A stretch of 64,000 nucleotides of DNA from the IMG/VR virus record IMGVR_UViG_3300022538_000539, positions 1 through 64,000 of that record; one strand, given 5' to 3'. Under the pieces are notes generated by a model. The model did no database searches and was not told the origin of the DNA. It worked only from the letters and a program-made list of their open reading frames with translations. A program made the position numbers and the translations under genes. Below, in pieces: positions 6,964-36,488 of this stretch. The DNA comes from a virus. The number at the start of each line of letters is the position of its first letter. Within the stretch, counting starts at the first letter, position 1.

Positions 6964-7362
6964 ATGGCTCAAACTAGTATATATGGATTAGCAAAATCGT
7001 TTAAGGCAGCAGCAGACTATTCAACAACAGGACAATACTTATTTGTAGTAGAAAGTGCTGAAGGTGAATGTACAACTGCTGGTACTGCATCAGAATTCGT
7101 TATGGGTGTTCTACAAAATAAGCCAGAACAATATAAGTCAGCAAGAATTAGGATTGAAGGAACTACAAAACTAACTTCTGGAGACACTATTGTAATTAAT
7201 GATTTAATTGCTACAGATGCAAGTGGTAAGGGAGTTCCTATTACACCTGTAACATCTGGAGAAGTTATTAATCATATTCGTGGCGTAGCACTAACAGCAG
7301 CAAGTGTAGCAGATAAAACTTTTGAAATTCATCTAATAAATATGATTGCCTTAACTGCGTAA
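6964..7362 (+). CDS. Head decoration protein (DUF2190 family-like)
   Basis: A 132-residue protein lying between scaffold and major capsid gene, where capsid-stabilising decoration proteins sit. Small residues, Thr/Ser and beta strands dominate (SGDTIVINDLIATDASGKG, VINHIRGVALTAA), as in DUF2190 proteins. In contrast to most of the genome it is not Lys-rich, as is common for abundant virion proteins. A strong SD (GGGAGGTGG) precedes ATG. The leader contains a hairpin and the downstream gap contains a 14-bp hairpin. Confidence 0.7.
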   Translation: MAQTSIYGLAKSFKAAADYSTTGQYLFVVESAEGECTTAGTASEFVMGVLQNKPEQYKSARIRIEGTTKLTSGDTIVINDLIATDASGKGVPITPVTSGEVINHIRGVALTAASVADKTFEIHLINMIALTA

Positions 7363-7411
7363 TCTTAATATTCGATTAATAAATTATTACAAATGATTTT
7401 AGTTGTATGGA

Positions 7412-16583: not shown

Positions 16584-18230
16584 TTGAAAATAGATTTATC
16601 AAAATATGATAAGTTATCAGACAAACAATGGAAAGATAAGGTAATTTATCGTGGATTACACATTAAATATAAGCATCAACTGAATAAACTTAAAAAACTT
16701 TATCCTAAAAAGATTGAAACATTACAAGATAGACTTAAATTTTTACAATTTGATACAGAGAAACCTGAATTTGATAAAACATTGAAATTGGTTGAAATTT
16801 TTGATTTAGAATTTTGTTTGAATAAACAATTATCAGAACTTGAAAATATAGTTAATGACAAAGTTGAATTTTTAAATAATAAAATAGAGCGAATAGTTGA
16901 TAAATATGCAGCAACTCTTAAAGAAATTGAGTTGAGAGATAAGAAATTGGTTAAACGAACCCCAAAAGGAACTGTATACTATATTGACTTGAATGCAGGC
17001 GATGATGGATTGGATGGCTTAACTACTGGAAATGCTTGGCTAACTTTAAATAAATATACAACAGTAGAAGCAAGAACTCCAGGAGATATAGCAAAAGTTA
17101 GAGCTGGAACATCTCAAATATTTGCAGGTAATTTAGCCCTTGATGAAGATGGGAATGTAGACAATCTAATAACAATTAAAGGTTGTAGTGTTGCAGATGA
17201 CCCGTGGAGTGATAGTTCTGATGTTAGACCTATTTTAGATTTTAATGATACTACTTATTTGGTTTATAGTGCTGGAGACCATCGTTGGAAATTTCAGAAT
17301 TTGGATTTTAAGGGAGGAAATAGTACCACTGACGCTTGTGTAAGTATTGATTCAAATAACACTTTTTTTGATAATTGCAGAATTTATGAAAATGGGTCAA
17401 CTGGCTTGCTTTTGAAAGGTAATAATGGAGCAGAAATTAGAGATTGTGAATTTTACAGTAATGTAGGCATAAATTTGTCCATAGGAGATATAGGAAATCT
17501 ATCTATCATAGGATGCACATTTAATGGAGGAACAGACACTACTAATTATGGAATTTATTACAATAACAGAGTTGAACCATTAGTATTAATAGATTGTAGT
17601 TTTGGACAAACTACTACTCACGATACAGTAGATATTCGTTTACTTTCAAATGGTAATTTGATTATGAGAAATTGTGTCTATAATTCTATTACATATTATG
17701 ATTATTATAATACAGATAAGGGACAAAAATTACGTAGCGAAGATGATGGACAAGTTTTTGAGGTTCATAAGACAAATACTTATGATGTAACTTTAGAAAG
17801 AGATACTGTGGTCACAAGACCAGGTGGTGCAGACAGTTCTTTAAAAATGACACCAAGTTCAAGAGTAGGACTATATAATAAGGTAAGTTCTTCTGGAGGA
17901 CAAGGAGAAATAGTAAGAGGAACTTTCAGAATTTGGTTGCAAGCAGATGTAGAAAAAACTATTAATATCTACATTAAAGGTTTTGGTTGGACGGGATTTC
18001 CAACAGTTGCACAATTATTTGTTCGAGCTTCTTATCTAAGTAATGCAGGAAATGCAAATAGAACAGAAATAGATAGTGATGAAGTAATAGCGAATAATGT
18101 TGATTGGGTTCCATTTCAAGTTACGTTGACACCTGCACGAACAGGGTTTGTTTATGTAGATGCGTTTATAGCCCATTACGAAGCAAGTAGTGGTATAAAC
18201 ATAGATATAGATACAAGTAATATAACATAA
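16584..18230 (+). CDS. Tail spike/adhesin with right-handed beta-helix
   Basis: Residues ~1-125 are helical and charged, likely for anchoring. Residues ~130-380 open with GTVYYIDLNAGDDGLDGLTTGNAW, a frequent N-terminal cap of pectate-lyase-like spikes. They continue with stacked beta-helix rungs (FQNLDFKGGN, FDNCRIYENGSTGLLLKG, IRDCEFYSN, IIGCTFNGG, LIDCSFG, MRNCVYNS). The last ~150 residues are a beta-sandwich, possibly carbohydrate-binding. It probably recognises or degrades host surface glycan. TTG 16584 is used, behind AAAGGAG at good spacing. Confidence 0.75.
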   Translation: MKIDLSKYDKLSDKQWKDKVIYRGLHIKYKHQLNKLKKLYPKKIETLQDRLKFLQFDTEKPEFDKTLKLVEIFDLEFCLNKQLSELENIVNDKVEFLNNKIERIVDKYAATLKEIELRDKKLVKRTPKGTVYYIDLNAGDDGLDGLTTGNAWLTLNKYTTVEARTPGDIAKVRAGTSQIFAGNLALDEDGNVDNLITIKGCSVADDPWSDSSDVRPILDFNDTTYLVYSAGDHRWKFQNLDFKGGNSTTDACVSIDSNNTFFDNCRIYENGSTGLLLKGNNGAEIRDCEFYSNVGINLSIGDIGNLSIIGCTFNGGTDTTNYGIYYNNRVEPLVLIDCSFGQTTTHDTVDIRLLSNGNLIMRNCVYNSITYYDYYNTDKGQKLRSEDDGQVFEVHKTNTYDVTLERDTVVTRPGGADSSLKMTPSSRVGLYNKVSSSGGQGEIVRGTFRIWLQADVEKTINIYIKGFGWTGFPTVAQLFVRASYLSNAGNANRTEIDSDEVIANNVDWVPFQVTLTPARTGFVYVDAFIAHYEASSGINIDIDTSNIT

Positions 18231-27761: not shown

Positions 27762-28208
27762 ATGTCATCAGGAATGTATTTAAGAACAGAAAAACATAAA
27801 GGTAAAAATGCTCCTAATTACAAAGATGGAAGAACACTGAAAAAATATTATTGTACGAACTGTGGAAAAGAATTATCATATTACACTGCTAAAAGATGTC
27901 AAAGTTGTGCTAATAGAAAAAATTTTAGTGGTAAAAATAATCCTAATTGGCAAGGAGGTAATTCATTCAAACCATATTCTCCAAAATTCAATAATAATTT
28001 AAAAGAGAAAATTAGAAACAGAGATAATAAAACTTGTCAATTATGCAATAAAACAGAAAAACAAAATGGTAGAAATTTATCAATTCATCATATAGATTAT
28101 AATAAAAAAAATAGTAATCCAAATAATCTAATAACCTTATGTATAAGTTGCAATTTTAAAGTTAATTATAATAGAAATTATTGGATTAAATATTTTAGAA
28201 AAAAATAA
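27762..28208 (+). CDS. HNH homing endonuclease
   Basis: A 148-residue protein. Residues ~30-50 hold a zinc ribbon (YYCTNCGKEL ... RCQSC). A NUMOD3-type NNPNWQGG segment follows, then the HNH nuclease: CQLC, IHHIDYNKKN and LCISC. The middle closely matches the HNH at 30965-31420 (NNPNWQGG, FKPYSPKFNN), and its N-terminus matches the HNH at 32681-33160 (DGRTLKKYYC), showing domain shuffling among the phage's own HNH genes. It is the last plus-strand gene and converges with the minus-strand block 13 bases away. Confidence 0.75.
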   Translation: MSSGMYLRTEKHKGKNAPNYKDGRTLKKYYCTNCGKELSYYTAKRCQSCANRKNFSGKNNPNWQGGNSFKPYSPKFNNNLKEKIRNRDNKTCQLCNKTEKQNGRNLSIHHIDYNKKNSNPNNLITLCISCNFKVNYNRNYWIKYFRKK

Positions 28209-28846: not shown

Positions 28847-28922
28847 TGGAGCCAGCAGTCGGGTTCGAACCGACGACCTGTTCATTACAAGTGAACTGCT
28901 CTGCCAACTGAGCTACACTGGC
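28847..28922 (-). tRNA. tRNA-Thr(TGT)
   Basis: Acceptor GCCAGTG pairs with TGCTGGC, allowing wobble. The anticodon loop CTTGTAA lies in a GTTCA/TGAAC stem, the T-loop is TTCGAAC, and CCA is encoded. It abuts the next tRNA with no spacer. Confidence 0.9.
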
Positions 28923-28997
28923 TGGAACTGGTGATGGGACTTGAACCCACAAAACTGACTTGGAAGGACAGCATTTTGCCAATTAAATTACACCAGC
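28923..28997 (-). tRNA. tRNA-Gly(TCC)
   Basis: Acceptor GCTGGTG/CACCAGT, anticodon loop CTTCCAA, T-loop TTCAAGT, CCA encoded. The anticodon stem has one T-T mismatch. Confidence 0.85.
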
Positions 28998-29072
28998 TGG
29001 GGTAAGTGGCGAGACTTGAACTCGTATCTCATTGGTTCACAGCCAACACGCATTAACTTATGCTACACTTAC
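28998..29072 (-). tRNA. tRNA-His(GTG)
   Basis: Acceptor GTAAGTG/CACTTAC, anticodon loop CTGTGAA, discriminator C73 as expected for His, CCA encoded. The base before position 1 is C, so the usual G-1 is not encoded. Confidence 0.88.
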
Positions 29073-29073
29073 G

Positions 29074-29147
29074 TGGCAAATCCACAAGGACTCGAACCTT
29101 GAACTTCTGTTTTGGAGACAGATATTTTTCCATTAAACTATGGATTT
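29074..29147 (-). tRNA. tRNA-Trp(CCA)
   Basis: Acceptor AAATCCA/TGGATTT, anticodon loop CTCCAAA, T-loop TTCGAGT, discriminator G and CCA encoded. Anticodon CCA reads only UGG, consistent with UGA being a stop in this genome. Confidence 0.9.
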
Positions 29148-29223
29148 TGGTAACAGAGGAGGGACTTGAACCCCCAACCTTCTGGATGTAAGCCAGACAA
29201 TCTACCATTGATAATACTCTGTT
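29148..29223 (-). tRNA. tRNA-Val(TAC)
   Basis: Acceptor AACAGAG/CTCTGTT, anticodon loop CTTACAT in a TCTGG/CCAGA stem, T-loop TTCAAGT, A73 and CCA encoded. Confidence 0.9.
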
Positions 29224-29297
29224 TGGCTGAGAAGAAAGGATTCGAACCTCTATCAATGGATTCAAAGTCCACTATCCTACCATTAGACGACTTCTCA
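29224..29297 (-). tRNA. tRNA-Gln(TTG)
   Basis: Acceptor TGAGAAG/CTTCTCA, anticodon loop CTTTGAA, discriminator G73, CCA encoded. Upstream on the minus strand its 5' end directly follows a CCA-ended mini-hairpin (29298-29324). Confidence 0.88.
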
Positions 29298-29324
29298 TGG
29301 ATTTAGTTATTATTTAAACTAAAT
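29298..29324 (-). ncRNA. CCA-ended mini-hairpin in the tRNA array
   Basis: On the minus strand ATTTAGTT pairs with AACTAAAT across an 8-base loop and is followed at once by CCA, which abuts the 5' base of tRNA-Gln. The spacing is that of a tRNA 3' end. It may be the relic of a lost tRNA or a deliberate mini-substrate for tRNA enzymes. Confidence 0.45.
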
Positions 29325-29357
29325 TTTTTATTAAACCATAAAATATAATTATCAAAT

Positions 29358-29434
29358 TGGTATTCAGGGTAGGACTCGAACCTACATTAAACAGATTCTA
29401 AGTCTGCTGTGTTTGCCAATTACACCACCTGAAC
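29358..29434 (-). tRNA. tRNA with Leu anticodon TAG, short variable loop
   Basis: Acceptor GTTCAGG/CCTGAAT, D stem GTGT/ACAC, anticodon loop CTTAGAA, T stem GTAGG/CCTAC, A73 and CCA encoded. The variable loop is only about five bases (class I), unlike normal bacterial tRNA-Leu, which has a long variable arm. Confidence 0.85.
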
Positions 29435-29512
29435 TGGTGCTTGAAACAGGATTCGAACCTGTATAAAATGGATTTTGAATCCACTATGTTTGCCTAATTA
29501 CATCATTCAAGC
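29435..29512 (-). tRNA. tRNA with Leu anticodon CAA, short variable loop
   Basis: Acceptor GCTTGAA/TTCAAGC, D stem ATGT/ACAT, anticodon loop TTCAAAA, T-loop TTCGAAT, A73 and CCA encoded. The variable loop is about five bases, so it lacks the class II arm expected for Leu. Confidence 0.85.
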
Positions 29513-29589
29513 TGGTGTACAAGGTCAGATTCGAACTGACAAAAGATGGATTTTAAGTCCATTATGTTTACCAATTACATCACTTGTAC
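29513..29589 (-). tRNA. tRNA with Leu anticodon TAA, short variable loop
   Basis: Acceptor GTACAAG/CTTGTAC, D stem ATGT/ACAT, anticodon loop CTTAAAA in an ATGGA/TCCAT stem, A73 and CCA encoded. The variable loop is about five bases. It is clearly related to the two preceding Leu-anticodon tRNAs. Confidence 0.85.
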
Positions 29590-29666
29590 TGGTAGCGGGA
29601 GTGGGATTCGAACCCACGACCTTCTGGTTATGAGCCAGTTTATCTACCTGACTGATATATCCCGCT
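29590..29666 (-). tRNA. tRNA-Met(CAT), elongator-like
   Basis: Acceptor AGCGGGA/TCCCGCT, anticodon loop CTCATAA, T-loop TTCGAAT, CCA encoded. There is no C1-A72 mismatch and no run of three G-C pairs in the anticodon stem, so it is not an initiator. Lysidine-modified Ile cannot be excluded. Its first base is shared with the neighbouring CCA. Confidence 0.82.
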
Positions 29667-29742
29667 GGTCAGAGTGAAAAGATTTGAACTTTTGACCTCA
29701 TGTTCCCAAAACACGCGTTCTACCAGACTGAACTACACTCTG
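29666..29742 (-). tRNA. tRNA-Pro(TGG)
   Basis: Acceptor CAGAGTG/CACTCTG, anticodon loop TTTGGGA in a CGTGT/ACATG stem, T-loop TTCAAAT, A73 and CCA encoded. Confidence 0.9.
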
Positions 29743-29819
29743 TGGTGGAACGAACAGGACTCGAACCTACATCTTCCTGATTAAAAGTCAGACGCTTTAC
29801 CATATTAAGCTATCGTTCC
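29743..29819 (-). tRNA. tRNA-Lys(TTT)
   Basis: Acceptor GGAACGA/TCGTTCC, anticodon loop CTTTTAA, T-loop TTCGAGT, A73 and CCA encoded. Confidence 0.9.
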
Positions 29820-29822
29820 TAG

Positions 29823-29895
29823 TTGTATTGATGAGATTTGAACTCATATCTTGATGATTAAGAGTCATCTGTTTTACCAATTAAACTACAATACT
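29823..29895 (-). tRNA. tRNA-Lys(CTT)
   Basis: Anticodon loop CTCTTAA in a GATGA/TCATC stem, T-loop TTCAAAT. The acceptor pairs only GTATTG/CAATAC cleanly. The 3' end reads CTA instead of CCA, so it is the only tRNA here without an encoded CCA. It may be slightly decayed. Confidence 0.8.
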
Positions 29896-29971
29896 GGCTG
29901 TGCAGGTAGGATTCGAACCTACATCTTTGGGATTAACAGTCCCACATTTTACCAATTAATACTACTACACA
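29895..29971 (-). tRNA. tRNA-Asn(GTT)
   Basis: Acceptor TGTGTAG/CTGCACA with one G-T pair, anticodon loop CTGTTAA, T-loop TTCGAAT, G73 and CCA encoded. A CCA-ended mini-hairpin lies directly upstream. Confidence 0.88.
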
Positions 29972-29998
29972 TGGATTATAAGTCCTCACGCTTATAAT
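29972..29998 (-). ncRNA. CCA-ended mini-hairpin in the tRNA array
   Basis: On the minus strand ATTATAAG pairs with CTTATAAT across the 8-base loop CGTGAGGA, followed at once by CCA next to the 5' end of tRNA-Asn. A related hairpin without CCA lies at 30007-30024. Confidence 0.45.
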
Positions 29999-30006
29999 AC
30001 TACAAT

Positions 30007-30024
30007 ATAAGTCCCTGTGCTTAT
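30007..30024 (-). ncRNA. Hairpin related to the CCA-ended mini-hairpin
   Basis: ATAAG pairs with CTTAT around the 8-base loop CACAGGGA, similar in position and purine pattern to the loop CGTGAGGA of the neighbouring hairpin. The remaining sequence to 30089 is AT-rich with no gene seen. Confidence 0.3.
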
Positions 30025-30089
30025 CAAAGGCAACCTATATAATTTTATCTCTTATCAAAATTTATGATAATTTTTTATATTAGATATTT

Positions 30090-30178
30090 TGGCGGAAGAG
30101 ACAGGATTCGAACCTGTGTGGGTTTTACCCCAATGGATTAGCAGTCCATCTCGATAAACCTGACTCTGACACTCTTCC
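30090..30178 (-). tRNA. tRNA-Ser(GCT)
   Basis: Acceptor GGAAGAG/CTCTTCC, anticodon loop CTGCTAA, a proper class II variable arm (TGGGG/CCCAC), G73 and CCA encoded. An HNH gene separates it from the next tRNA. Confidence 0.9.
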
Positions 30179-30186
30179 TGGATTAA

Positions 30187-30609
30187 TTATTTCTCCTTCA
30201 ATCCATATTTTCCATCAAACCATTTCAAATAATCATCAATTCCTTGTTTTCCATATTTATAATAAATATAATCATATGCTCTTTGATGTAATAATCCATG
30301 TTTTGAATTTGATAATAATATAATTTCATCATTATTTTCTTTTAAATAAATATGATGCTTACATAATATATTTCTTGCTTTTTCTCTAAATTCAGAATTT
30401 TGCCATTGTTTCTTTGTTGCTATCCTTAAATTTTTTTTATGTTCATCAGTTAATTTTCTACCTGTAAGTGCTTTGCTTATTTTTTTTCTAGTTTTTTCAG
30501 AATATTTTTTAGTTTTTAAATTATGTCCATTAATATACTTATTTCCTAATTTTACAATTTGTCCACATCCACACTTACAATATTTTATTTTAATTTCACA
30601 TAATTTCAT
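30187..30609 (-). CDS. NUMOD3/HNH-type homing endonuclease in the tRNA array
   Basis: A 140-residue basic protein. Residues ~10-20 hold a small Cys cluster (CKCGCG). NUMOD3 DNA-binding repeats follow (SEKTRKKISKALTGRKLTDEHKKNL), then a His-rich nuclease end (LCKHHIYLKENNDEIILLSNSKHGLLH). It sits cleanly between two tRNA genes and does not interrupt either. It ends close to the tRNA-Ser 5' side, after AATCCA. It is related to the HNH at 32681-33160 in the last 60 residues. Confidence 0.75.
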   Translation of the reverse strand: MKLCEIKIKYCKCGCGQIVKLGNKYINGHNLKTKKYSEKTRKKISKALTGRKLTDEHKKNLRIATKKQWQNSEFREKARNILCKHHIYLKENNDEIILLSNSKHGLLHQRAYDYIYYKYGKQGIDDYLKWFDGKYGLKEK

Positions 30610-30642
30610 TTTATTCTCCTAATTGATATAAATATTAAATTC

Positions 30643-30728
30643 TGGTAGACGAGGTAGGATTCGAACCTACGAAGCTCTCAGCAATGGTATATAAGACCAT
30701 CTCCTTTAACCTGCTTGGATACTCGTCC
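30643..30728 (-). tRNA. Class II tRNA with Ile anticodon TAT
   Basis: Acceptor GGACGAG/CTCGTCT, anticodon loop CTTATAT in an ATGGT/ACCAT stem, A73 and CCA encoded. It has a long variable arm of ~13 bases (GCT/AGC stem), which tRNA-Ile never normally has. The body closely resembles the tRNA-Tyr at 31682-31767, so this looks like a Tyr-type body with a changed anticodon. Confidence 0.82.
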
Positions 30729-30817
30729 TGGTAGACAGGATAGGATTTGAACCTATGAAACTTTAATAGTAATGGCATATCAGACCATTCTCTTTGACCA
30801 AACTTGAATACCTGTCC
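30729..30817 (-). tRNA. Class II tRNA with Ile anticodon GAT
   Basis: Acceptor GGACAGG/CCTGTCT, anticodon loop CTGATAT in an ATGGT/GCCAT stem, A73 and CCA encoded, and a ~15-base variable arm with an ACT/AGT stem. With its neighbour it is the only source of Ile anticodons in the set. Confidence 0.82.
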
Positions 30818-30889
30818 TGGAGACAGAGAGGGGAGTCGAACCCCTGTGGATAGTTTTGCAGACTACCTCGATTCCAAATCTACTCTGTC
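30818..30889 (-). tRNA. tRNA-Cys(GCA)
   Basis: Acceptor GACAGAG/CTCTGTC, anticodon loop CTGCAAA, T-loop TTCGACT, CCA encoded. The D arm is short (GAT/ATC around TTGGA). Confidence 0.83.
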
Positions 30890-30965
30890 TGGTGGAGAAA
30901 TTTGGAATTGAACCAAAACCTACAGGTCTTCAACCTATCGTGCAGACCTCTTACACCATTTCTCC
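30890..30965 (-). tRNA. tRNA-Phe(GAA)
   Basis: Acceptor GGAGAAA/TTTCTCC, anticodon loop TTGAAGA in an ATAGG/CCTGT stem, T-loop TTCAATT, A73 and CCA encoded. Its 5' base touches the stop codon of the neighbouring HNH gene. Confidence 0.88.
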
Positions 30966-31420
30966 TATCTTATTTGATTATGACATCTAATACATAAAGT
31001 TAATAAATTATCTAATTTATTATTTTTCTTATTATCATTAATATGATGAACATGCAATTTTTGATTATATTTTTTAATATATTCCTCCTGAGTTATTCCA
31101 CATTTTTGACAAATATGATTATCTCGTTCCCTAATAAATTCTTTTAACTTATTATTAAATTCTGGAGAATAAGGTTCAAATGATTTGCCACCTTGCCAAT
31201 TAGGATTATTTTTACCTCTCATAATTTTTTTAATTGTTTTTCTATATTTAGGATTTTTCCAAACTTGTTCCATACTTTTACTAACACTTATGCTTATATT
31301 TTTCCTATGTTCTTCAGTAAGTTTTTTACCTTTATGTGCTTTACTTATTTTCTTTTTAACTTTTTTAGAAACTATATGTCCTTTAACAAATCTTCCTTTA
31401 TTATTTCTATCTTTGTTCAT
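30965..31420 (-). CDS. NUMOD3-HNH homing endonuclease in the tRNA array
   Basis: A 151-residue protein with NUMOD3-type repeats (KKVKKKISKAHKGKKLTEEHRKN), then NNPNWQGG and a C-terminal HNH nuclease: CQKC, VHHINDNKKNN and LCIRCH. It lies between tRNA-Phe and tRNA-Asp and touches the tRNA-Phe 5' end. It shares its C-terminal half with the HNH at 27762-28208. Confidence 0.8.
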   Translation of the reverse strand: MNKDRNNKGRFVKGHIVSKKVKKKISKAHKGKKLTEEHRKNISISVSKSMEQVWKNPKYRKTIKKIMRGKNNPNWQGGKSFEPYSPEFNNKLKEFIRERDNHICQKCGITQEEYIKKYNQKLHVHHINDNKKNNKLDNLLTLCIRCHNQIR

Positions 31421-31439
31421 TTTTATCCCCCATATTTTT

Positions 31440-31516
31440 TGGCGACACTAACGGGATTTGAACCCGTATCTCTTGCGTGACAGGCAAGTGTCATAACCTG
31501 ATTAGACCATAATGTC
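31440..31516 (-). tRNA. tRNA-Asp(GTC)
   Basis: Acceptor GACATTA/TAGTGTC, anticodon loop CTGTCAC in a CTTGC/GCAAG stem, G73 and CCA encoded. Confidence 0.9.
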
Positions 31517-31591
31517 TGGTAGAACTAGTGAGAATCGAACTCACATCATATGCTTGAAAGGCATATATCCTAACCATTAGACCATAGTTCC
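31517..31591 (-). tRNA. tRNA-Glu(TTC)
   Basis: Acceptor GGAACTA/TAGTTCT, anticodon loop CTTTCAA in a TATGC/GCATA stem, T-loop TTCGATT, A73 and CCA encoded. Confidence 0.9.
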
Positions 31592-31681
31592 TGGCGGAAA
31601 GAGTAGGATTCGAACCTACGGAAGTTTTACCTTCAATAGTTTTCAAGACTATCACAATAAACCTGACTCTGACATCTTTCC
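31592..31681 (-). tRNA. tRNA-Ser(TGA)
   Basis: Acceptor GGAAAGA/TCTTTCC, anticodon loop CTTGAAA in an ATAGT/ACTAT stem, class II variable arm (GAAG/CTTC), G73 and CCA encoded. Confidence 0.9.
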
Positions 31682-31767
31682 TGGTGGAGAGAATAGGATT
31701 TGAACCTACGAACCCATACGAGAGCAGTTTTACAGACTGCCTGCTTTAACCACTTGCATATCTCTCC
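31682..31767 (-). tRNA. tRNA-Tyr(GTA)
   Basis: Acceptor GGAGAGA/TCTCTCC, anticodon loop CTGTAAA in a GCAGT/ACTGC stem, long variable region, A73 and CCA encoded. It is the likely relative of the two Ile-anticodon class II tRNAs. Confidence 0.9.
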
Positions 31768-31844
31768 TGGTACGCCTGGTAGGACTTGAACCTACATCTT
31801 GCGGATTAGAAGTCCACTGTTCTATTCCATTAAACTACAGACGT
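31768..31844 (-). tRNA. tRNA-Arg(TCT)
   Basis: Acceptor ACGTCTG/CAGGCGT with one G-T pair, anticodon loop CTTCTAA in a GTGGA/TCCGC stem, A73 and CCA encoded. Confidence 0.88.
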
Positions 31845-31920
31845 TGGTGGAGATAGAGGGACTTGAACCCACAACTTCAGGGTGCAAACCTAATGTTTTT
31901 CCAATTAAAACTATATCCCC
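31845..31920 (-). tRNA. tRNA-Ala(TGC)
   Basis: Acceptor GGGGATA/TATCTCC, anticodon loop TTTGCAC in a TTAGG/CCTGA stem, A73 and CCA encoded. The G3-U70 pair that marks tRNA-Ala is present. Confidence 0.9.
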
Positions 31921-31999
31921 TGGAGTGCCTGATGAGATTCGAACTCACAATCTATGGGTTCGTAGCCCATTGTTTTATATCCAATTAAACTACAGACAC
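31921..31999 (-). tRNA. tRNA-Arg(ACG)
   Basis: Acceptor GTGTCTG/CAGGCAC, anticodon loop CTACGAA in an ATGGG/CCCAT stem, T-loop TTCGAAT, CCA encoded. A34 would need conversion to inosine by host TadA to read CGC and CGA. It is the first tRNA of the array in transcription order. Confidence 0.9.
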
Positions 32000-32047: not shown

Positions 32048-32096
32048 GTGGATTTAATTAATATGTTTAAATTATAAATGAATTTATTTAAAACAT

Positions 32097-32162
32097 CTAA
32101 TTCATACCTCCACTAAACCATTCTAAATGTTCTTCTATTTGCTTACAATTTTCTTTCGGCAT
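32097..32162 (-). pseudogene. 22-codon remnant of an HNH/NUMOD3 endonuclease
   Basis: A tiny frame beginning MPKENCKQIEEHLEWF resembles the N-terminus shared by the phage's HNH proteins (MPKKGYKQTEEH at 33160 and MAKKGYKQTEEH at 36488) and stops after 21 residues. It is probably what remains of a lost copy. Translation is unproven. Confidence 0.4.
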
Positions 32163-32199
32163 CTTACCTTCTTATATTTATTTCTAATTATTTATTAAT

Positions 32200-32302
32200 G
32201 GATATTTTTTAAATCGGTTGTGTTTATTCTGTAAGATAGAGCAAACACACTTGGATAAATCTCTAACTTACATTTGCCTATTTAAGAAATATAGAAATAT
32301 CC
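32200..32302 (-). ncRNA. Structured RNA element with 8-bp closing stem
   Basis: GGATATTT and AAATATCC form a perfect 8-bp closing stem across ~100 bases. Inside, GTAAG/CTTAC and TAGAG/CTCTA form an 11-position stem with one mismatch (32231-32241 with 32261-32271). No reading frame is seen. It lies in the gene-free stretch 32163-32544. Confidence 0.45.
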
Positions 32303-32358
32303 AAAAACTATATTTCGCAAAATTTTTATAAATACTGTTTAGTAATTTAAAACCCAAA

Positions 32359-32442
32359 CAAGTATAAGAACTCCTTCTACACTTGGTAGATGAGATTATA
32401 CCTGCCTTTGCCATCAACTTTGCTAACGCAGTTGCAGGTATA
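32359..32442 (-). ncRNA. Two adjacent strong hairpins
   Basis: The first (32359-32385) pairs CAAGTGTA..GAA with TTC..TATACTTG around a GGAG loop on the minus strand. The second (32397-32442) has a perfect 9-bp stem TATACCTGC/GCAGGTATA enclosing a smaller AACT/AGTT hairpin. A further 8-bp pairing GAAGTTTT/AAAACTTC spans ~32450-32496, and a small GGG-CGT-CCC hairpin lies near 32517. No protein gene is present. Confidence 0.4.
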
Positions 32443-32544
32443 TTTTAATGAAGTTTTTTTATAACTATTCATCCCTAACAACAACTAGAAAACTTCAAAA
32501 CTAATTGGTTCTTTTGGGACGCCCATCAGCTTGACACATTTTTA

Positions 32545-32599
32545 ATGGCGAAAAGTATAATTTATCTACTAAATACATAATAGGAACTTTCTATGCCAT
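32545..32599 (-). ncRNA. Covarying stem-loop RNA family, copy R1
   Basis: Minus strand: outer stem ATGGC/GCCAT, conserved AUA, middle stem GAAAGU/ACUUUU, conserved UCCUAUU, inner hairpin AUUUA-GUAGA-UAAAU, and a conserved C before the closing strand. Compared with copies R2-R4 the middle stem changes on both sides (G-C to A-U), which supports RNA pairing. Confidence 0.65.
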
Positions 32600-32609
32600 A
32601 TTCTTTATA

Positions 32610-32676
32610 AATAGCGAGAAGTAAATCTTTAGACAGGGTCTCCCCTGTATATAAAATAGGAACTTCTTATGCTATT
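32610..32676 (-). ncRNA. Covarying stem-loop RNA family, copy R2
   Basis: Outer stem AATAGC/GCTATT, AUA, middle stem AGAAGU/ACUUCU, UCCUAUU, inner stem ACAGGG/CCCUGU capped by the GNRA tetraloop GAGA on the minus strand. It lies four bases beyond the stop of the HNH gene. Confidence 0.7.
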
Positions 32677-32680
32677 ATTT

Positions 32681-33160
32681 TTATTTAATTAAATTCAATA
32701 TAGTATCTCTAAACCATATAAGATAATCATCAATCTTACCAATTTCTACTAAATAATTATATGCTTTTACATGTAGTTTTCTATGTTCAGAATTTGTTAA
32801 AAATAAAACTCTCTTATCATCACCATCTAAATCAATATGATGCTTGTGTAATATATCTTTATGTTTTTTTCTAAATTTAGAATTTTGCCATACTTTTTTC
32901 ATAGTTTTACTTTTTTTCTTCTTAACTTCAAATCTATTTCCTACTTCTCTACTTGCACAACTTCTACATCTTTTAGCACCATAAACAATTTCCTTTCTAC
33001 AATCTATACAATAATATTTTTTTAAAGTTCTACCATCAATATAACTTGGATGTTTTATACCATCTTTAAATTCAGTTTCAAATGAATAATGTTTATTCTT
33101 GTGAGCAATTCTTAATTTTTCTTTATGTTCTTCTGTTTGTTTATATCCTTTTTTAGGCAT
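32681..33160 (-). CDS. NUMOD3/HNH-type homing endonuclease
   Basis: A 159-residue protein. The N-terminus MPKKGYKQTEEHKEKLRIAHK is a NUMOD3-like DNA-binding start. Residues ~40-70 hold DGRTLKKYYC, then CRKEI and RCRSC (zinc ribbon). The end has HKHHIDLDGDDKRVLFLTNSEHRKLH, a His-Me-finger-like nuclease region. It lies directly between the 661-residue gene and RNA copies R1/R2. The N-terminal region is shared with the HNH at 27762 and the C-terminal region with the HNH at 30187. Confidence 0.75.
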   Translation of the reverse strand: MPKKGYKQTEEHKEKLRIAHKNKHYSFETEFKDGIKHPSYIDGRTLKKYYCIDCRKEIVYGAKRCRSCASREVGNRFEVKKKKSKTMKKVWQNSKFRKKHKDILHKHHIDLDGDDKRVLFLTNSEHRKLHVKAYNYLVEIGKIDDYLIWFRDTILNLIK

Positions 33161-33164
33161 TATT

Positions 33165-35150
33165 TCACTTTAATAATCCCAGAATTGTATCTTTTTCTAA
33201 ATCTTCTGGTGCAAGAGAAATATCGTAATCTTTTTTATCACTAGTAATTTCTGCACCTGCCATTTCTAAAATATCATTTAATTTAATAGTATTTCCATAA
33301 AAGTTAAATAGATATTTTCTACTATGTTCAGTAAAATTTGCATTATAAGAAGTTATTGAACATCCTATATGTGTTTCAGCAAAATAAAATCTGTTTTCAT
33401 TAGGATTTGTAATTATAAGTCCTAATATTTTTTGTTGTTGTTTGATATTACTATGACATACTACTGCAACATTATTTGGATTTACCATATAGTTCTTTCC
33501 AAAATTAGATATCTTTTCTTCTGCTATAACTATCTTAAATGGTACTTCAATATTTTCATCAAAATTATAATAATTTACAAATAGAATTAATGCATCATCT
33601 TCTTGTTTTCTAACATAAAATAATTCAGTAGCCCCTTTTTGTGCATCTGTTAAATCTCCTGAAAACAAAATATCTCCTTCATCTGACCTATAACTAGCAT
33701 CCCATCCTATTTTTGTGCTTTTGGAAATTACAGATAAATCTAAATCAATTCTATTACCTTTAACATTTTCCCAATATACCCCAAAGACCATATCTCTGGG
33801 AATTGTTACATAAGTACCAGATGGAAAATTACCTGTAAATTGTTTCTCTGTTGCTGGTAAGGTATATGTTATATTCTCTGGAATATAAATTTTCTTACCT
33901 TTAACATTTTTGCTAATATCTTCTACTATTGAATTTAAAACAATATCTAATACTTGTTTTGCTCCTTCTTTATTATCAAAATTAAAATCAGTTGCATATC
34001 CTTTACCATTTCTAATTCTATATAATATGCTATCAACATCTTTTGTTCTATATTTCAAAGCATATGCTAATCTTATTTTTCTAAAAGTATTAACTTTGTT
34101 TAATTCATTTTCTAAAATAAAATCATATACGCCCAACCCTTTTTTCAATTTAGTAGTAATGCTATTTAAATAATCTATTGGCATTGGTTTATGATACTTT
34201 TTAGCAAGTCTTCCAATTCTATTTACTATTGTTTTTAATTGTCTATTTGTTCTCAATGCTAACCATAAAGGTTTAAATCTATAAAATATTTCTGCTAATT
34301 TTTCAAATCCATATTGTCTTTTATATTGTTCCAATAAATTAACAATATGTATATCTTTTTTTTCCTTAACTGCTGCTATAAGTCCAGGACTTTTAATTAA
34401 CAAAGTGTTTCCTGTAATTTTATAAATAATAAATCTTAAAAATTCAACTGGATTTTCAGGTATTAAGTTTAAATAACTATACATAGTCGCTTTAATTTCT
34501 TTATTTCTAATAGTAGCCAAGTCTTGTTCATCTACTCCCACAAACAATGCTATATCTATTACATCTTTAATAGTATCTTCTGCAAGAGCAATACCCATAT
34601 TAAGCAAATTCATTAATTTTTCTTTCAATTCTTTTTTAGTATAACCTTGTATTACTACCAATTTAATATTATCTATTTCAAGTCCTGGAATATTCAATTT
34701 TTCTTTTGGTATATAAATATAACCACTATCTATTGATTTATCTACATCAAAGTCTTCAAGTTCTAATATTTTCTTACCAAGATTATCTACGCCCCATTGT
34801 GCTCCTTTTTCTACTACATATTCTGCTGGATAATCACTTTCTACACCATAAGTAGTTAAATAATGAGCCAACTGTTCTACTACTAATTGCTCCATAGGAG
34901 TATCCTTAACTTTTAACCAAGACTTATGAAAAGAAGCATTTAATTTTTCAGCAGTCATTCCATATATGTCTTGCACCATTTCAATAAGTTCAACATAGTT
35001 TGTATAATTACAAGCAATCTCTGGTGCAAAAACAAAACCCATTTTAATAGTATTCGCCAAAAGGTCTAAATCACTTACTTTATAAGTTCGTGCTTTCAAT
35101 CTTTTTGATTTTACTGGTAATCCTTTAAATAATCTAATACTTGCTTTCAT
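33165..35150 (-). CDS. Large protein of unknown function with helical middle and possible TerD-like C-terminal domain
   Basis: A 661-residue protein. Residues ~170-400 are helix-rich, with basic, aromatic stretches (EFLRFIIYKITGN, LAEIFYRFKPLWLAL, RIGRLAKKYHKPMP, FRKIRLAYALKYR). They end with ILYRIRNGKGYA, a pattern compatible with RNA binding. Residues ~445-560 are beta-rich (VTIPRDMVFGVYW, NRIDLDLSVISKS, GDILFSGDLTDA, ALILFVNYYNF) and resemble TerD/stress-protein domains. It is flanked by RNA copies R3/R4 upstream and by an HNH gene and R1/R2 downstream. I cannot name its function; an RNA-binding or ribonucleoprotein role is inference from context. SD AAAGGAG. Confidence 0.6.
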   Translation of the reverse strand: MKASIRLFKGLPVKSKRLKARTYKVSDLDLLANTIKMGFVFAPEIACNYTNYVELIEMVQDIYGMTAEKLNASFHKSWLKVKDTPMEQLVVEQLAHYLTTYGVESDYPAEYVVEKGAQWGVDNLGKKILELEDFDVDKSIDSGYIYIPKEKLNIPGLEIDNIKLVVIQGYTKKELKEKLMNLLNMGIALAEDTIKDVIDIALFVGVDEQDLATIRNKEIKATMYSYLNLIPENPVEFLRFIIYKITGNTLLIKSPGLIAAVKEKKDIHIVNLLEQYKRQYGFEKLAEIFYRFKPLWLALRTNRQLKTIVNRIGRLAKKYHKPMPIDYLNSITTKLKKGLGVYDFILENELNKVNTFRKIRLAYALKYRTKDVDSILYRIRNGKGYATDFNFDNKEGAKQVLDIVLNSIVEDISKNVKGKKIYIPENITYTLPATEKQFTGNFPSGTYVTIPRDMVFGVYWENVKGNRIDLDLSVISKSTKIGWDASYRSDEGDILFSGDLTDAQKGATELFYVRKQEDDALILFVNYYNFDENIEVPFKIVIAEEKISNFGKNYMVNPNNVAVVCHSNIKQQQKILGLIITNPNENRFYFAETHIGCSITSYNANFTEHSRKYLFNFYGNTIKLNDILEMAGAEITSDKKDYDISLAPEDLEKDTILGLLK

Positions 35151-35173: not shown

Positions 35174-35232
35174 GTGGCGAGAAGTAAATGTCAATCTGCC
35201 CGAAGGCAGGAAATAGGAACTTCTTATGCCAC
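35174..35232 (-). ncRNA. Covarying stem-loop RNA family, copy R3
   Basis: Outer stem GTGGC/GCCAC, AUA, middle stem AGAAGU/ACUUCU, UCCUAUU, inner stem CUGCC/GGCAG capped by a UUCG tetraloop on the minus strand. It lies 23 bases before the 661-residue gene, so it could also be part of that gene's leader. Confidence 0.7.
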
Positions 35233-35269: not shown

Positions 35270-35334
35270 GATGACGAGAAGTAAAATGCAAATAGGGTTT
35301 CCCCTATATATTAATAGGAACTTCTTATGTCATC
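35270..35334 (-). ncRNA. Covarying stem-loop RNA family, copy R4
   Basis: Outer stem GATGAC/GTCATC, AUA, middle stem AGAAGU/ACUUCU, UCCUAUU, inner stem AUAGGG/CCCUAU capped by a GAAA tetraloop on the minus strand. Confidence 0.7.
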
Positions 35335-35348
35335 TTTGTTAAATTTTT

Positions 35349-35379
35349 GGAGTAGTTGTTAAGTACAACTACCAAAACT
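35349..35379 (-). ncRNA. H-type pseudoknot-like RNA element K7
   Basis: Minus strand: AGU, UUU, GGUAGUUGU, ACU, UA, ACAACUAC. Stem 2 is strong; stem 1 is only three pairs, so a simple hairpin is also possible. It shares CAGUUUU..GUAGUUGUAC with K6. Confidence 0.45.
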
Positions 35380-35445
35380 GACATGCTCACTTTCAGCTTC
35401 TAGGATATCTTAGCTGAGACAAACCTTGCGATTCATAAGCACATT

Positions 35446-35476
35446 AATAATTGTTACAGTACAACTACTAAAACTG
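35446..35476 (-). ncRNA. H-type pseudoknot RNA element K6
   Basis: Minus strand: CAGU, UUU, AGUAGUUGU, ACUG, UA, ACAAUUAUU. Stem 1 is CAGU/ACUG; stem 2 has nine pairs including two G-U wobbles. Relative to K7 the 3' arm carries C-to-U changes that keep pairing. Confidence 0.55.
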
Positions 35477-35526
35477 GGGGATTAACTCAAATGATAAAGC
35501 ATCAATTTGATATTACCCATCCACCA

Positions 35527-35562
35527 CTTTATTTTTTTCAAGAGTAATAAAGAAAACTCTTG
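35527..35562 (-). ncRNA. H-type pseudoknot RNA element K2
   Basis: Minus strand: CAAGAG, UUUU, CUUUAUU, A, CUCUUG, AAAAA, AAUAAAG. Stem 1 is six pairs and stem 2 seven pairs, with a pure U first loop and a pure A last loop. Confidence 0.6.
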
Positions 35563-35628
35563 TGGAAGAACAACATACTGCCAATATGATTTCTGACTTT
35601 CAACTAAATATAATAATCAAAATTAAAA

Positions 35629-35669
35629 CTGGATTCTTATTTATAGAAGACAACCCAGCTAAAACTTCT
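35629..35669 (-). ncRNA. H-type pseudoknot RNA element K5
   Basis: Minus strand: AGAAG, UUUUAG, CUGGGUU, GU, CUUCU, AUAAAUAAG, AAUCCAG. Stem 1 is AGAAG/CUUCU; stem 2 is CUGGGUU/AAUCCAG with one G-U pair. Between 35580 and 35628 a further AT-rich repeat-like stretch is present but not resolved. Confidence 0.55.
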
Positions 35670-35692
35670 GCCCCATGACGAAATGAGTACCA

Positions 35693-35728
35693 AGTTATTT
35701 TTTCTTAAAAGAAATAACTAAAACTTTT
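35693..35728 (-). ncRNA. H-type pseudoknot RNA element K3
   Basis: Minus strand: AAAAG, UUUU, AGUUAUUU, CUUUU, AAGAAA, AAAUAACU. The stems are AAAAG/CUUUU and AGUUAUUU/AAAUAACU, directly adjacent for coaxial stacking. UACCA/UGGUA flanks could close a larger unit. Confidence 0.6.
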
Positions 35729-35773
35729 GTTCCAGTGATGAAACTGGTATACACAATGACCTGTCAAGCTTGG

Positions 35774-35812
35774 TATTATTTTTTGATAAAGAAGAAATAA
35801 TAAAAACTTCTT
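35774..35812 (-). ncRNA. H-type pseudoknot RNA element K4
   Basis: Minus strand: AAGAAG, UUUU, UAUUAUUU, CUUCUU, UAUCAAA, AAAUAAUA. Six-pair stem 1 and eight-pair stem 2 are directly adjacent. It is the first pseudoknot of the group in transcription order, just after the HNH gene. Confidence 0.6.
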
Positions 35813-35876
35813 GTGCGTGTCGTCTAGTAGCACAAAACCACATCTCCAAAACCAAAGTTATTTTATCAAAGAACAA

Positions 35877-36488
35877 TTAAATATTTTCACTATCACTAAA
35901 TTTAAAATCATCACATATTTCCAGATTTAACTTAGATTTTGCTATATAACCCTCTTTTAATTCAAATTTATTTACTATCATTTTGCAATAGTTTATAAAT
36001 TCTTTATGTGTTCTATTAGATTTAGTTGTATTACATTTGTGACAAATAATCTGAACATTATTCATATTTAATATTTTCTCATTATCAATTCTATCAAGTG
36101 CTGGTGAATTATCTTGTATACCTTTTCCTCTATTATAATTCATTTTCACATTACAATATGTACAATATTTAATATTTTTTGCTAATATTATCAATTCATT
36201 TCTAGAAATATTTACTTGATATTTTCTTTTATGTTTACTTATTGTACTGTTAACCCATAAATAATAAGAATCAGAACTTCTTCCATCTATCCAATTAGGA
36301 TTATTTTCACCACATAATACTATACTTAAATTTCTTTTATGCTCTTCAGTTAATTTTCTACCTTTTAATGTCTTACTTATTTTCTTTTTAGTTTTCTCAG
36401 ACCGATTTTTATTTTTCCAATATTTTGCACTATTCTCACTTAATTTTTTTTTGTGCTCTTCTGTTTGTTTATACCCTTTTTTAGCCAT
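35877..36488 (-). CDS. NUMOD3-HNH homing endonuclease
   Basis: A 203-residue protein. Its N-terminal NUMOD3-type region begins MAKKGYKQTEEHKKKL and continues SEKTKKKISKTLKGRKLTEEHKRN. The nuclease part has a zinc pair (YCTYCNVKMNY), LDRIDNEKILNMNNVQIICHKCNTTK and a basic C-terminus. This is a fuller HNH than the others here. It lies immediately upstream of the pseudoknot array on the same strand. Confidence 0.8.
   Translation of the reverse strand: MAKKGYKQTEEHKKKLSENSAKYWKNKNRSEKTKKKISKTLKGRKLTEEHKRNLSIVLCGENNPNWIDGRSSDSYYLWVNSTISKHKRKYQVNISRNELIILAKNIKYCTYCNVKMNYNRGKGIQDNSPALDRIDNEKILNMNNVQIICHKCNTTKSNRTHKEFINYCKMIVNKFELKEGYIAKSKLNLEICDDFKFSDSENI

Follow-up and report, generated by a model that had tools for sequence, protein, structure and literature searches.

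Predicted H-type pseudoknot elements and a second, tRNA-associated RNA element in a phage tRNA island

A noncoding region of a phage genome contains a row of short elements that had been predicted, from the letters alone, to be H-type pseudoknots on the minus strand with a U-rich first and an A-rich last loop, similar to the RNA antitoxins of type III toxin-antitoxin systems. This raised the questions whether the pseudoknots are real and to which kind of RNA they belong. They were followed up in the window, i.e., the whole stretch of 64 kb of viral DNA that was analyzed, and the features are listed in Table 1. On the minus strand an HNH gene is followed by the elements K2-K7, two copies of a second element (R), the gene for a 661-aa protein, and a gene with a weak nuclease match. 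Two further R elements, about 500 nt with no clear gene, K1, and 26 tRNA genes come next; the tRNA genes cover all twenty amino acids, and the first of them, tRNA-Arg (31999), starts 12 bases past the end of K1. HNH-like reading frames were seen between or beside the tRNA genes (27762-28208, 30187-30609, 30965-31420, 32681-33160, and 35877-36488). The stretch without a clear gene before K1 (32050-32545, minus strand) folds somewhat better than shuffled sequences (z -2.2).

Table 1. Features of the island and their positions in the window. For K1-K6 stem 1, the U-rich loop and stem 2 are given in this order.
Feature	Position	Strand	Sequence parts and remarks
K1 pseudoknot (predicted)	32047-32012	minus	AAAG/CUUU, UUUUC, UACUUAUUU/AAAUAAGUA
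K2 pseudoknot (predicted)	35812-35774	minus	AAGAAG/CUUCUU, loop UUUU, UAUUAUUU/AAAUAAUA
K3 pseudoknot (predicted)	35728-35693	minus	AAAAG/CUUUU, UUUU, AGUUAUUU/AAAUAACU
K4 pseudoknot (predicted)	35669-35627	minus	AGAAG/CUUCU, UUUU, AGCUGGGUU/AAUCCAGUU, two G-U pairs
K5 pseudoknot (predicted)	35562-35527	minus	CAAGAG(U)/(A)CUCUUG, UUU(U), CUUUAUU/AAUAAAG
K6 element	35476-35446	minus	CAGU/ACUG, UUU, AGUAGUUGU/ACAAUUAUU; very short loop 3 (2 nt)
K7 element	35379-35352	minus	hairpin GUAGUUGU/ACAACUAC; stem 1 just 3 bp (AGU/ACU)
Noncoding region holding K2-K7	35349-35876	minus	longest stop-free stretches about 50 codons
HNH gene	36488-35877	minus	Pfam NUMOD3
R element 1	35270-35334	minus	P1 GAUGAC/GUCAUC, AUA/C, P2 AGAAG/CUUCU, UUCCUAUU ... 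UUUA; loop with GAAA-capped hairpin
R element 2	35174-35232	minus	immediately precedes the 661-aa gene; UUCG-capped hairpin in the loop
661-aa protein gene	33165-35150	minus	family unknown; R elements accompany it in most carriers
Gene with weak nuclease-domain match	33160-32681	minus	HNH-like reading frame
R element 3	32610-32676	minus	
R element 4	32545-32599	minus	
Array of 26 tRNA genes	28847-31999	minus	downstream of the K elements, same strand

All seven predicted K sequences were found on the minus strand at the places that had been given for them. The start-to-start spacing of K2-K7 is 84, 59, 107, 86, and 97 nt, and the cores have lengths of 28-43 nt and differ in their stems. The pairs K1/K3 and K6/K7 are near copies, and therefore the seven elements are not independent of one another. 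No convincing open reading frame was detected in the K2-K7 region, and its G+C content is 0.318 compared with 0.276 across the window. The G-U pairs of K4 and K6 are possible only on the minus strand, and this strand was assigned to the K elements on the basis of these pairs, the neighboring genes, and the tRNAs.

The H-type fold fits the K elements by sequence and pairing only, and its support was quantified in several ways. A blind scan of the 64-kb window, seeded on AGUUU (stem 1 with a final AG ahead of UUU, stem 2 no shorter than 5 bp, a short junction, and a loop 3 of 3-13), recovered K1-K5 and few other matches. In the 528-nt region the scan found four elements scoring at least 11.5, while 1992 of 2000 dinucleotide shuffles of this region had none, eight had one, and two were never seen. 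Because stem-2 hairpins alone could generate this signal, the contribution of stem 1 was assessed by shuffling of the letters, with stem 2 taken as given; single P values were 0.004-0.25, which is modest per copy, and the combined P was about 2e-4. Counting of pairs in the cores of K1-K5 revealed that all 55 cells are paired (100%), and that both sides had changed with retention of pairing at 6 of the 11 base pairs. One position of stem 2 is C-G in K1, A-U in K2, and G-C in K3, in copies that are otherwise aligned. The covariation score was 0.63, in comparison to 0.19 in shuffles (reached by 0 of 500) and 0.05-0.15 when the cores were slid; the value stems from five sequences only, which were cut by the analyst at paired positions, and is internal to one contig. 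Thus, the claim that pairing is kept with internal covariation holds for K1-K5, which are solid as predicted pseudoknots, while K6 is acceptable and K7 is marginal, being nearly a plain hairpin. At the level of the sequence, the pseudoknot array is real.

Relatives of the K elements were searched for in several collections. No K elements were found in the 16 related phage records scanned, and the exact K3 pattern yielded 26 stretches in viral contigs, none of which was a further copy with the K fold. Two gapped stem-1 patterns in viral contigs, among the matches listed, and one in genome contigs gave no K homologue after filtering for both stems. The leftovers of the pattern scans were scattered chance matches and an inverted-repeat family of A/T tracts in unrelated contigs, which also folds as plain hairpins. 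A BLAST search with the region as query produced short chance-level matches only, both in 21 records and in a phage collection. Relatives of the phage itself were sought through its proteins: the terminase gave two distant matches and the portal protein distant relatives only (below 30% identity), and there was no match for the major capsid protein or for the HNH protein. As these records and scans yielded no homologue, the evidence of covariation comes from the copies of a single contig, and the function had to be inferred. The K array is so far known from one phage.

Our preferred explanation, which is tentative, treats K2-K7 as domains within a single structured noncoding RNA of about 0.5 kb, which would form a nuclease-resistant scaffold or platform in the tRNA island. 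K2-K7 would be read on the minus strand within the transcript of the phage tRNA island, presumably as one RNA, and K1 would be a stray copy just ahead of the first tRNA. In the telomerase RNA pseudoknot, a U-rich loop 1 lies against the A-U pairs that start stem 2 and forms U.A-U triples, and loop 3 is A-rich. The junction-proximal part of stem 2 that faces the U-rich loop 1 is UUU/AAA in K1-K3 and UU/AA in K4 and K5, and the sequences of K1-K5 would permit the same kind of major-groove triples; the likeness is one of fold plan only and does not imply a common origin. Such compact modules could yield a rigid RNA scaffold that withstands nucleases and builds up in the course of infection, and that, by analogy with the GOLLD and ROOL RNAs, might serve as a structural or binding platform.

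Several observations led to the reading of a minus-strand RNA of about 0.5 kb, namely the number of elements far above that in shuffles, compensatory changes at the same positions, the G-U pairs restricted to the minus strand, little coding potential, the raised G+C content, and the downstream array of 26 tRNA genes on the same strand. It was also taken into account that the phage RNAs ROOL and GOLLD lie near tRNA islands and that ROOL contains multiple pseudoknots (PMC12286853). The K region shares this setting, i.e., it is phage-encoded, noncoding, hundreds of nucleotides long, and close to a tRNA island, and like ROOL and GOLLD the K RNA would be a long structured RNA; in contrast to them it is somewhat shorter and built around repeated H-type elements. 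The models of GOLLD (RF02032) and ROOL (RF03087) had no match in the genome, and the controls of the ROOL search were silent. These missing matches were counted against the reading, together with the lack of homologues and the nested fold of the whole K2-K7 region, which is only mildly better than that of shuffles (z -1.75), although nested folding cannot see pseudoknots.

Comparison with further RNA families gave no other assignment. For the K2-K7 region Rfam had no match at the gathering threshold, and extension to E values up to 5 added only chance-level scores. The pseudoknot domain of tmRNA also has several H-type pseudoknots in a row, but the K region has neither tRNA-like ends nor a recognizable tag reading frame, and neither ARAGORN nor Rfam called a tmRNA in the window. 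Readings as group I intron, known riboswitch, or tmRNA received no Rfam support. The K elements were also considered as degenerate R elements; this was rejected because the invariant UUCCU is absent and no P1 pairing surrounds K. The more cautious part of the original prediction, a new noncoding RNA family, is supported, in that the region appears to encode a new noncoding RNA that has no Rfam match and contains H-type pseudoknots with covariation among the copies.

Alternatively, the K elements may not belong to a separate RNA, but act in cis as leader or stabilizing structures of the transcript of the tRNA island and the 661-aa gene, e.g., by blocking exonucleases or by controlling processing or translation. 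Their location fits, because they lie upstream and on the same strand of R elements, 661-aa gene, and tRNAs, and K1 immediately precedes tRNA-Arg. However, homologues of the 661-aa gene in the records scanned occur with R elements but without upstream K elements, and six diverged copies would not be needed for a role in cis. This explanation is unlikely.

It is rather unlikely that the elements are mostly hairpins, in which stem 2 is genuine but stem 1 arises incidentally from purine-rich and pyrimidine-rich tracts in A+T-rich DNA, the copies being decaying duplicates without function. With a simple energy model and isolated cores, the pseudoknot clearly beat the nested hairpin only for K2, K4, K5, and K6, and the gain from stem 1 was small for K1, K3, and K7. 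In addition, A/T tracts of unrelated viral contigs readily mimic the plan, and conservation elsewhere was not found in the records and scans made. However, the local shuffles never yielded two elements, changes on both sides occurred also in stem 1, and the stems 1 of K2 and K5 comprise 6-7 bp including G-C pairs, which all argue against mere hairpins.

The original prediction had also raised the idea of a decoy. In its extended version every K element would mimic the RNA antitoxin belonging to a separate type III toxin of the host, and the array would neutralize several abortive-infection systems. A phage ToxI mimic is indeed known, and differences between the copies would be expected if their targets differ. 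The type III antitoxins (ToxI, AntiQ, CptI, and TenpI) and the phage pseudo-ToxI are also H-type pseudoknots in an array, and this general plan with an A-rich loop 3 is the part of the proposed likeness that stood. In type III antitoxins, however, a single short unit is repeated in tandem (36 nt x 5.5, 34 x 2.9, and 35 x 2.8; PMC5086642), and the only mimic proven in a phage is nearly a copy of the antitoxin repeat, in expanded form (PMC3475682). Their unit of about 34-36 nt (longer in CptI) is conserved, whereas the K cores differ in length and stems, are spaced irregularly, and are not in tandem. The Rfam covariance models of type III antitoxins did not match the K region even at E values up to 5. 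In type III systems a ToxN-family toxin gene follows downstream of a terminator. Here no toxin gene was found nearby, as a ToxN search of the 115-kb record had no match, with equally silent controls; as a phage decoy needs no toxin, this point alone does not speak against a decoy, and the idea is therefore weakened. With repeats that are neither tandem nor alike and no Rfam match, the decoy gained no support and is improbable.

The R element, which neighbors the K array, has no Rfam family. Its plan is P1-AUA/C-P2-UUCCUAU...UUA: an outer helix P1 is followed by an internal loop AUA, ACA, or AAA opposite C, and by the helix P2, which has 5 bp and G-C as its closing pair, with UUCCU(AU) after P2 and (U)UA before P2 on the 3' side. 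The invariant parts are A.A, GUUCCU, UAC, and C. A scanner that demands pairing collected 69 distinct copies from the window and the loci L001-L029, L070-L129, and L250-L252, in phages most of which carry the 661-aa protein; P2 occurs in these copies in 31 different sequences. In a strict scan the element was present in 14 of 16 records, whereas control loci totaling 1.06 Mb gave not a single match. The 661-aa protein is encoded in 12 of the 16 scanned records, and the four others are incomplete records or fragments. Nine other viral contigs encode homologues of the protein with 37-65% identity, and those of the Synechococcus phages S-CRM01 and S-CBWM1 and the gut phage Phass-1 share about 26% identity with it. 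The other proteins of the window are mostly unrelated in records carrying homologues, indicating that the 661-aa protein moves between unrelated phages, and in several carriers its gene lies in or near tRNA arrays. Searches of Pfam, PHROG, and PDB sequences assigned it to no family, and a Ro60/TROVE reading was dropped, as confidence in the model was low (mean pLDDT 63) and no significant fold match emerged. That the K array is a functional part of this module, e.g., as a structural partner RNA, is very improbable: R elements in pairs and the 661-aa gene lie near both noncoding K regions, but in the other phages scanned R elements and the protein came without K elements.

Various R elements were associated with tRNA sequences, and two topologies were observed. 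In the first, an intron-like insert of about 40-50 nt, with the R core in permuted order, lies in or near the anticodon arm of a tRNA. The Rfam tRNA model, which is blind to R, aligned full-length tRNAs around the anticodon-arm insert at L022 7845-7958 (62 bits) and L002 8852-8962 (53 bits). Further long tRNA matches with R-like inserts were seen at L002 3733-3846, L127 10766-10879 and 4177-4289, and L112 8613-8734; L027 (about 7274-7386) is also listed among the R-interrupted phage tRNA genes. ARAGORN misses these interrupted tRNAs. In the second topology the halves of R enclose other sequences, i.e., a tetraloop hairpin in three of the four window copies, and elsewhere an anticodon arm, a tRNA body with a GNRA-capped anticodon arm, or a tRNA whose 3' half precedes the 5' half. 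At L119 18182 and 18278 (minus strand) R elements surround a circularly permuted tRNA sequence, and at 18182 ARAGORN called the tRNA only after the loop had been circularized. Of 67 R loops, 17 contained hairpins similar to anticodon arms or T arms, compared with a mean of 5.5 and a maximum of 13 in shuffles, and 11 contained tetraloop hairpins, compared with a mean of 1.5 and a maximum of 5.

R loops with anticodon arms (Lys UUU, Ile GAU, Asn GUU, Ser UGA, and Cys GCA) or with tRNA bodies bearing GNRA tetraloops were noted at L252 8344, L112 4671, 6033, and 4542, L020 1966, L013 10478 and 10899, L002 4747, and L009 5152. Such loops are possibly tRNA mimics or pieces of split tRNAs, and splicing, circularization, and a role of the 661-aa protein may be part of the system. 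Two observations concern tmRNA-like RNAs outside the window. One of 98 nt (Rfam tmRNA) occurs at 70675-70772 of the genome record (minus strand) and at L089 6675-6772, and consists only of a tRNA-like domain and a capped helix, without tag frame and without pseudoknots. In the gut phage Phass-1 (L252 8482-8920), a tmRNA match of 77.9 bits directly follows a row of R elements; it is missing from the deposited annotation and had no ARAGORN call.

Taken together, the wider find is the island itself, with the K array, the R elements, the 661-aa protein, and the tRNAs, and within it the R element beside pieces of tRNAs looks more important than the pseudoknots. A still wider reading is doubtful: the large noncoding RNA would represent a new class in phages, built from repeated, diverged pseudoknots of the triple-helix type and working inside an undescribed RNA-processing island, in which the R element and the 661-aa protein interrupt or permute tRNAs and their arms or wrap around them. 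If real, the pseudoknot-repeat RNA would be a simple model for the roles of the abundant and puzzling large RNAs of phage tRNA islands. The anticodon-arm inserts, the permuted tRNAs, and the displayed anticodon arms, together with one conserved protein across unrelated phages, would point to an undescribed system of tRNA processing or tRNA mimicry in bacterial viruses.
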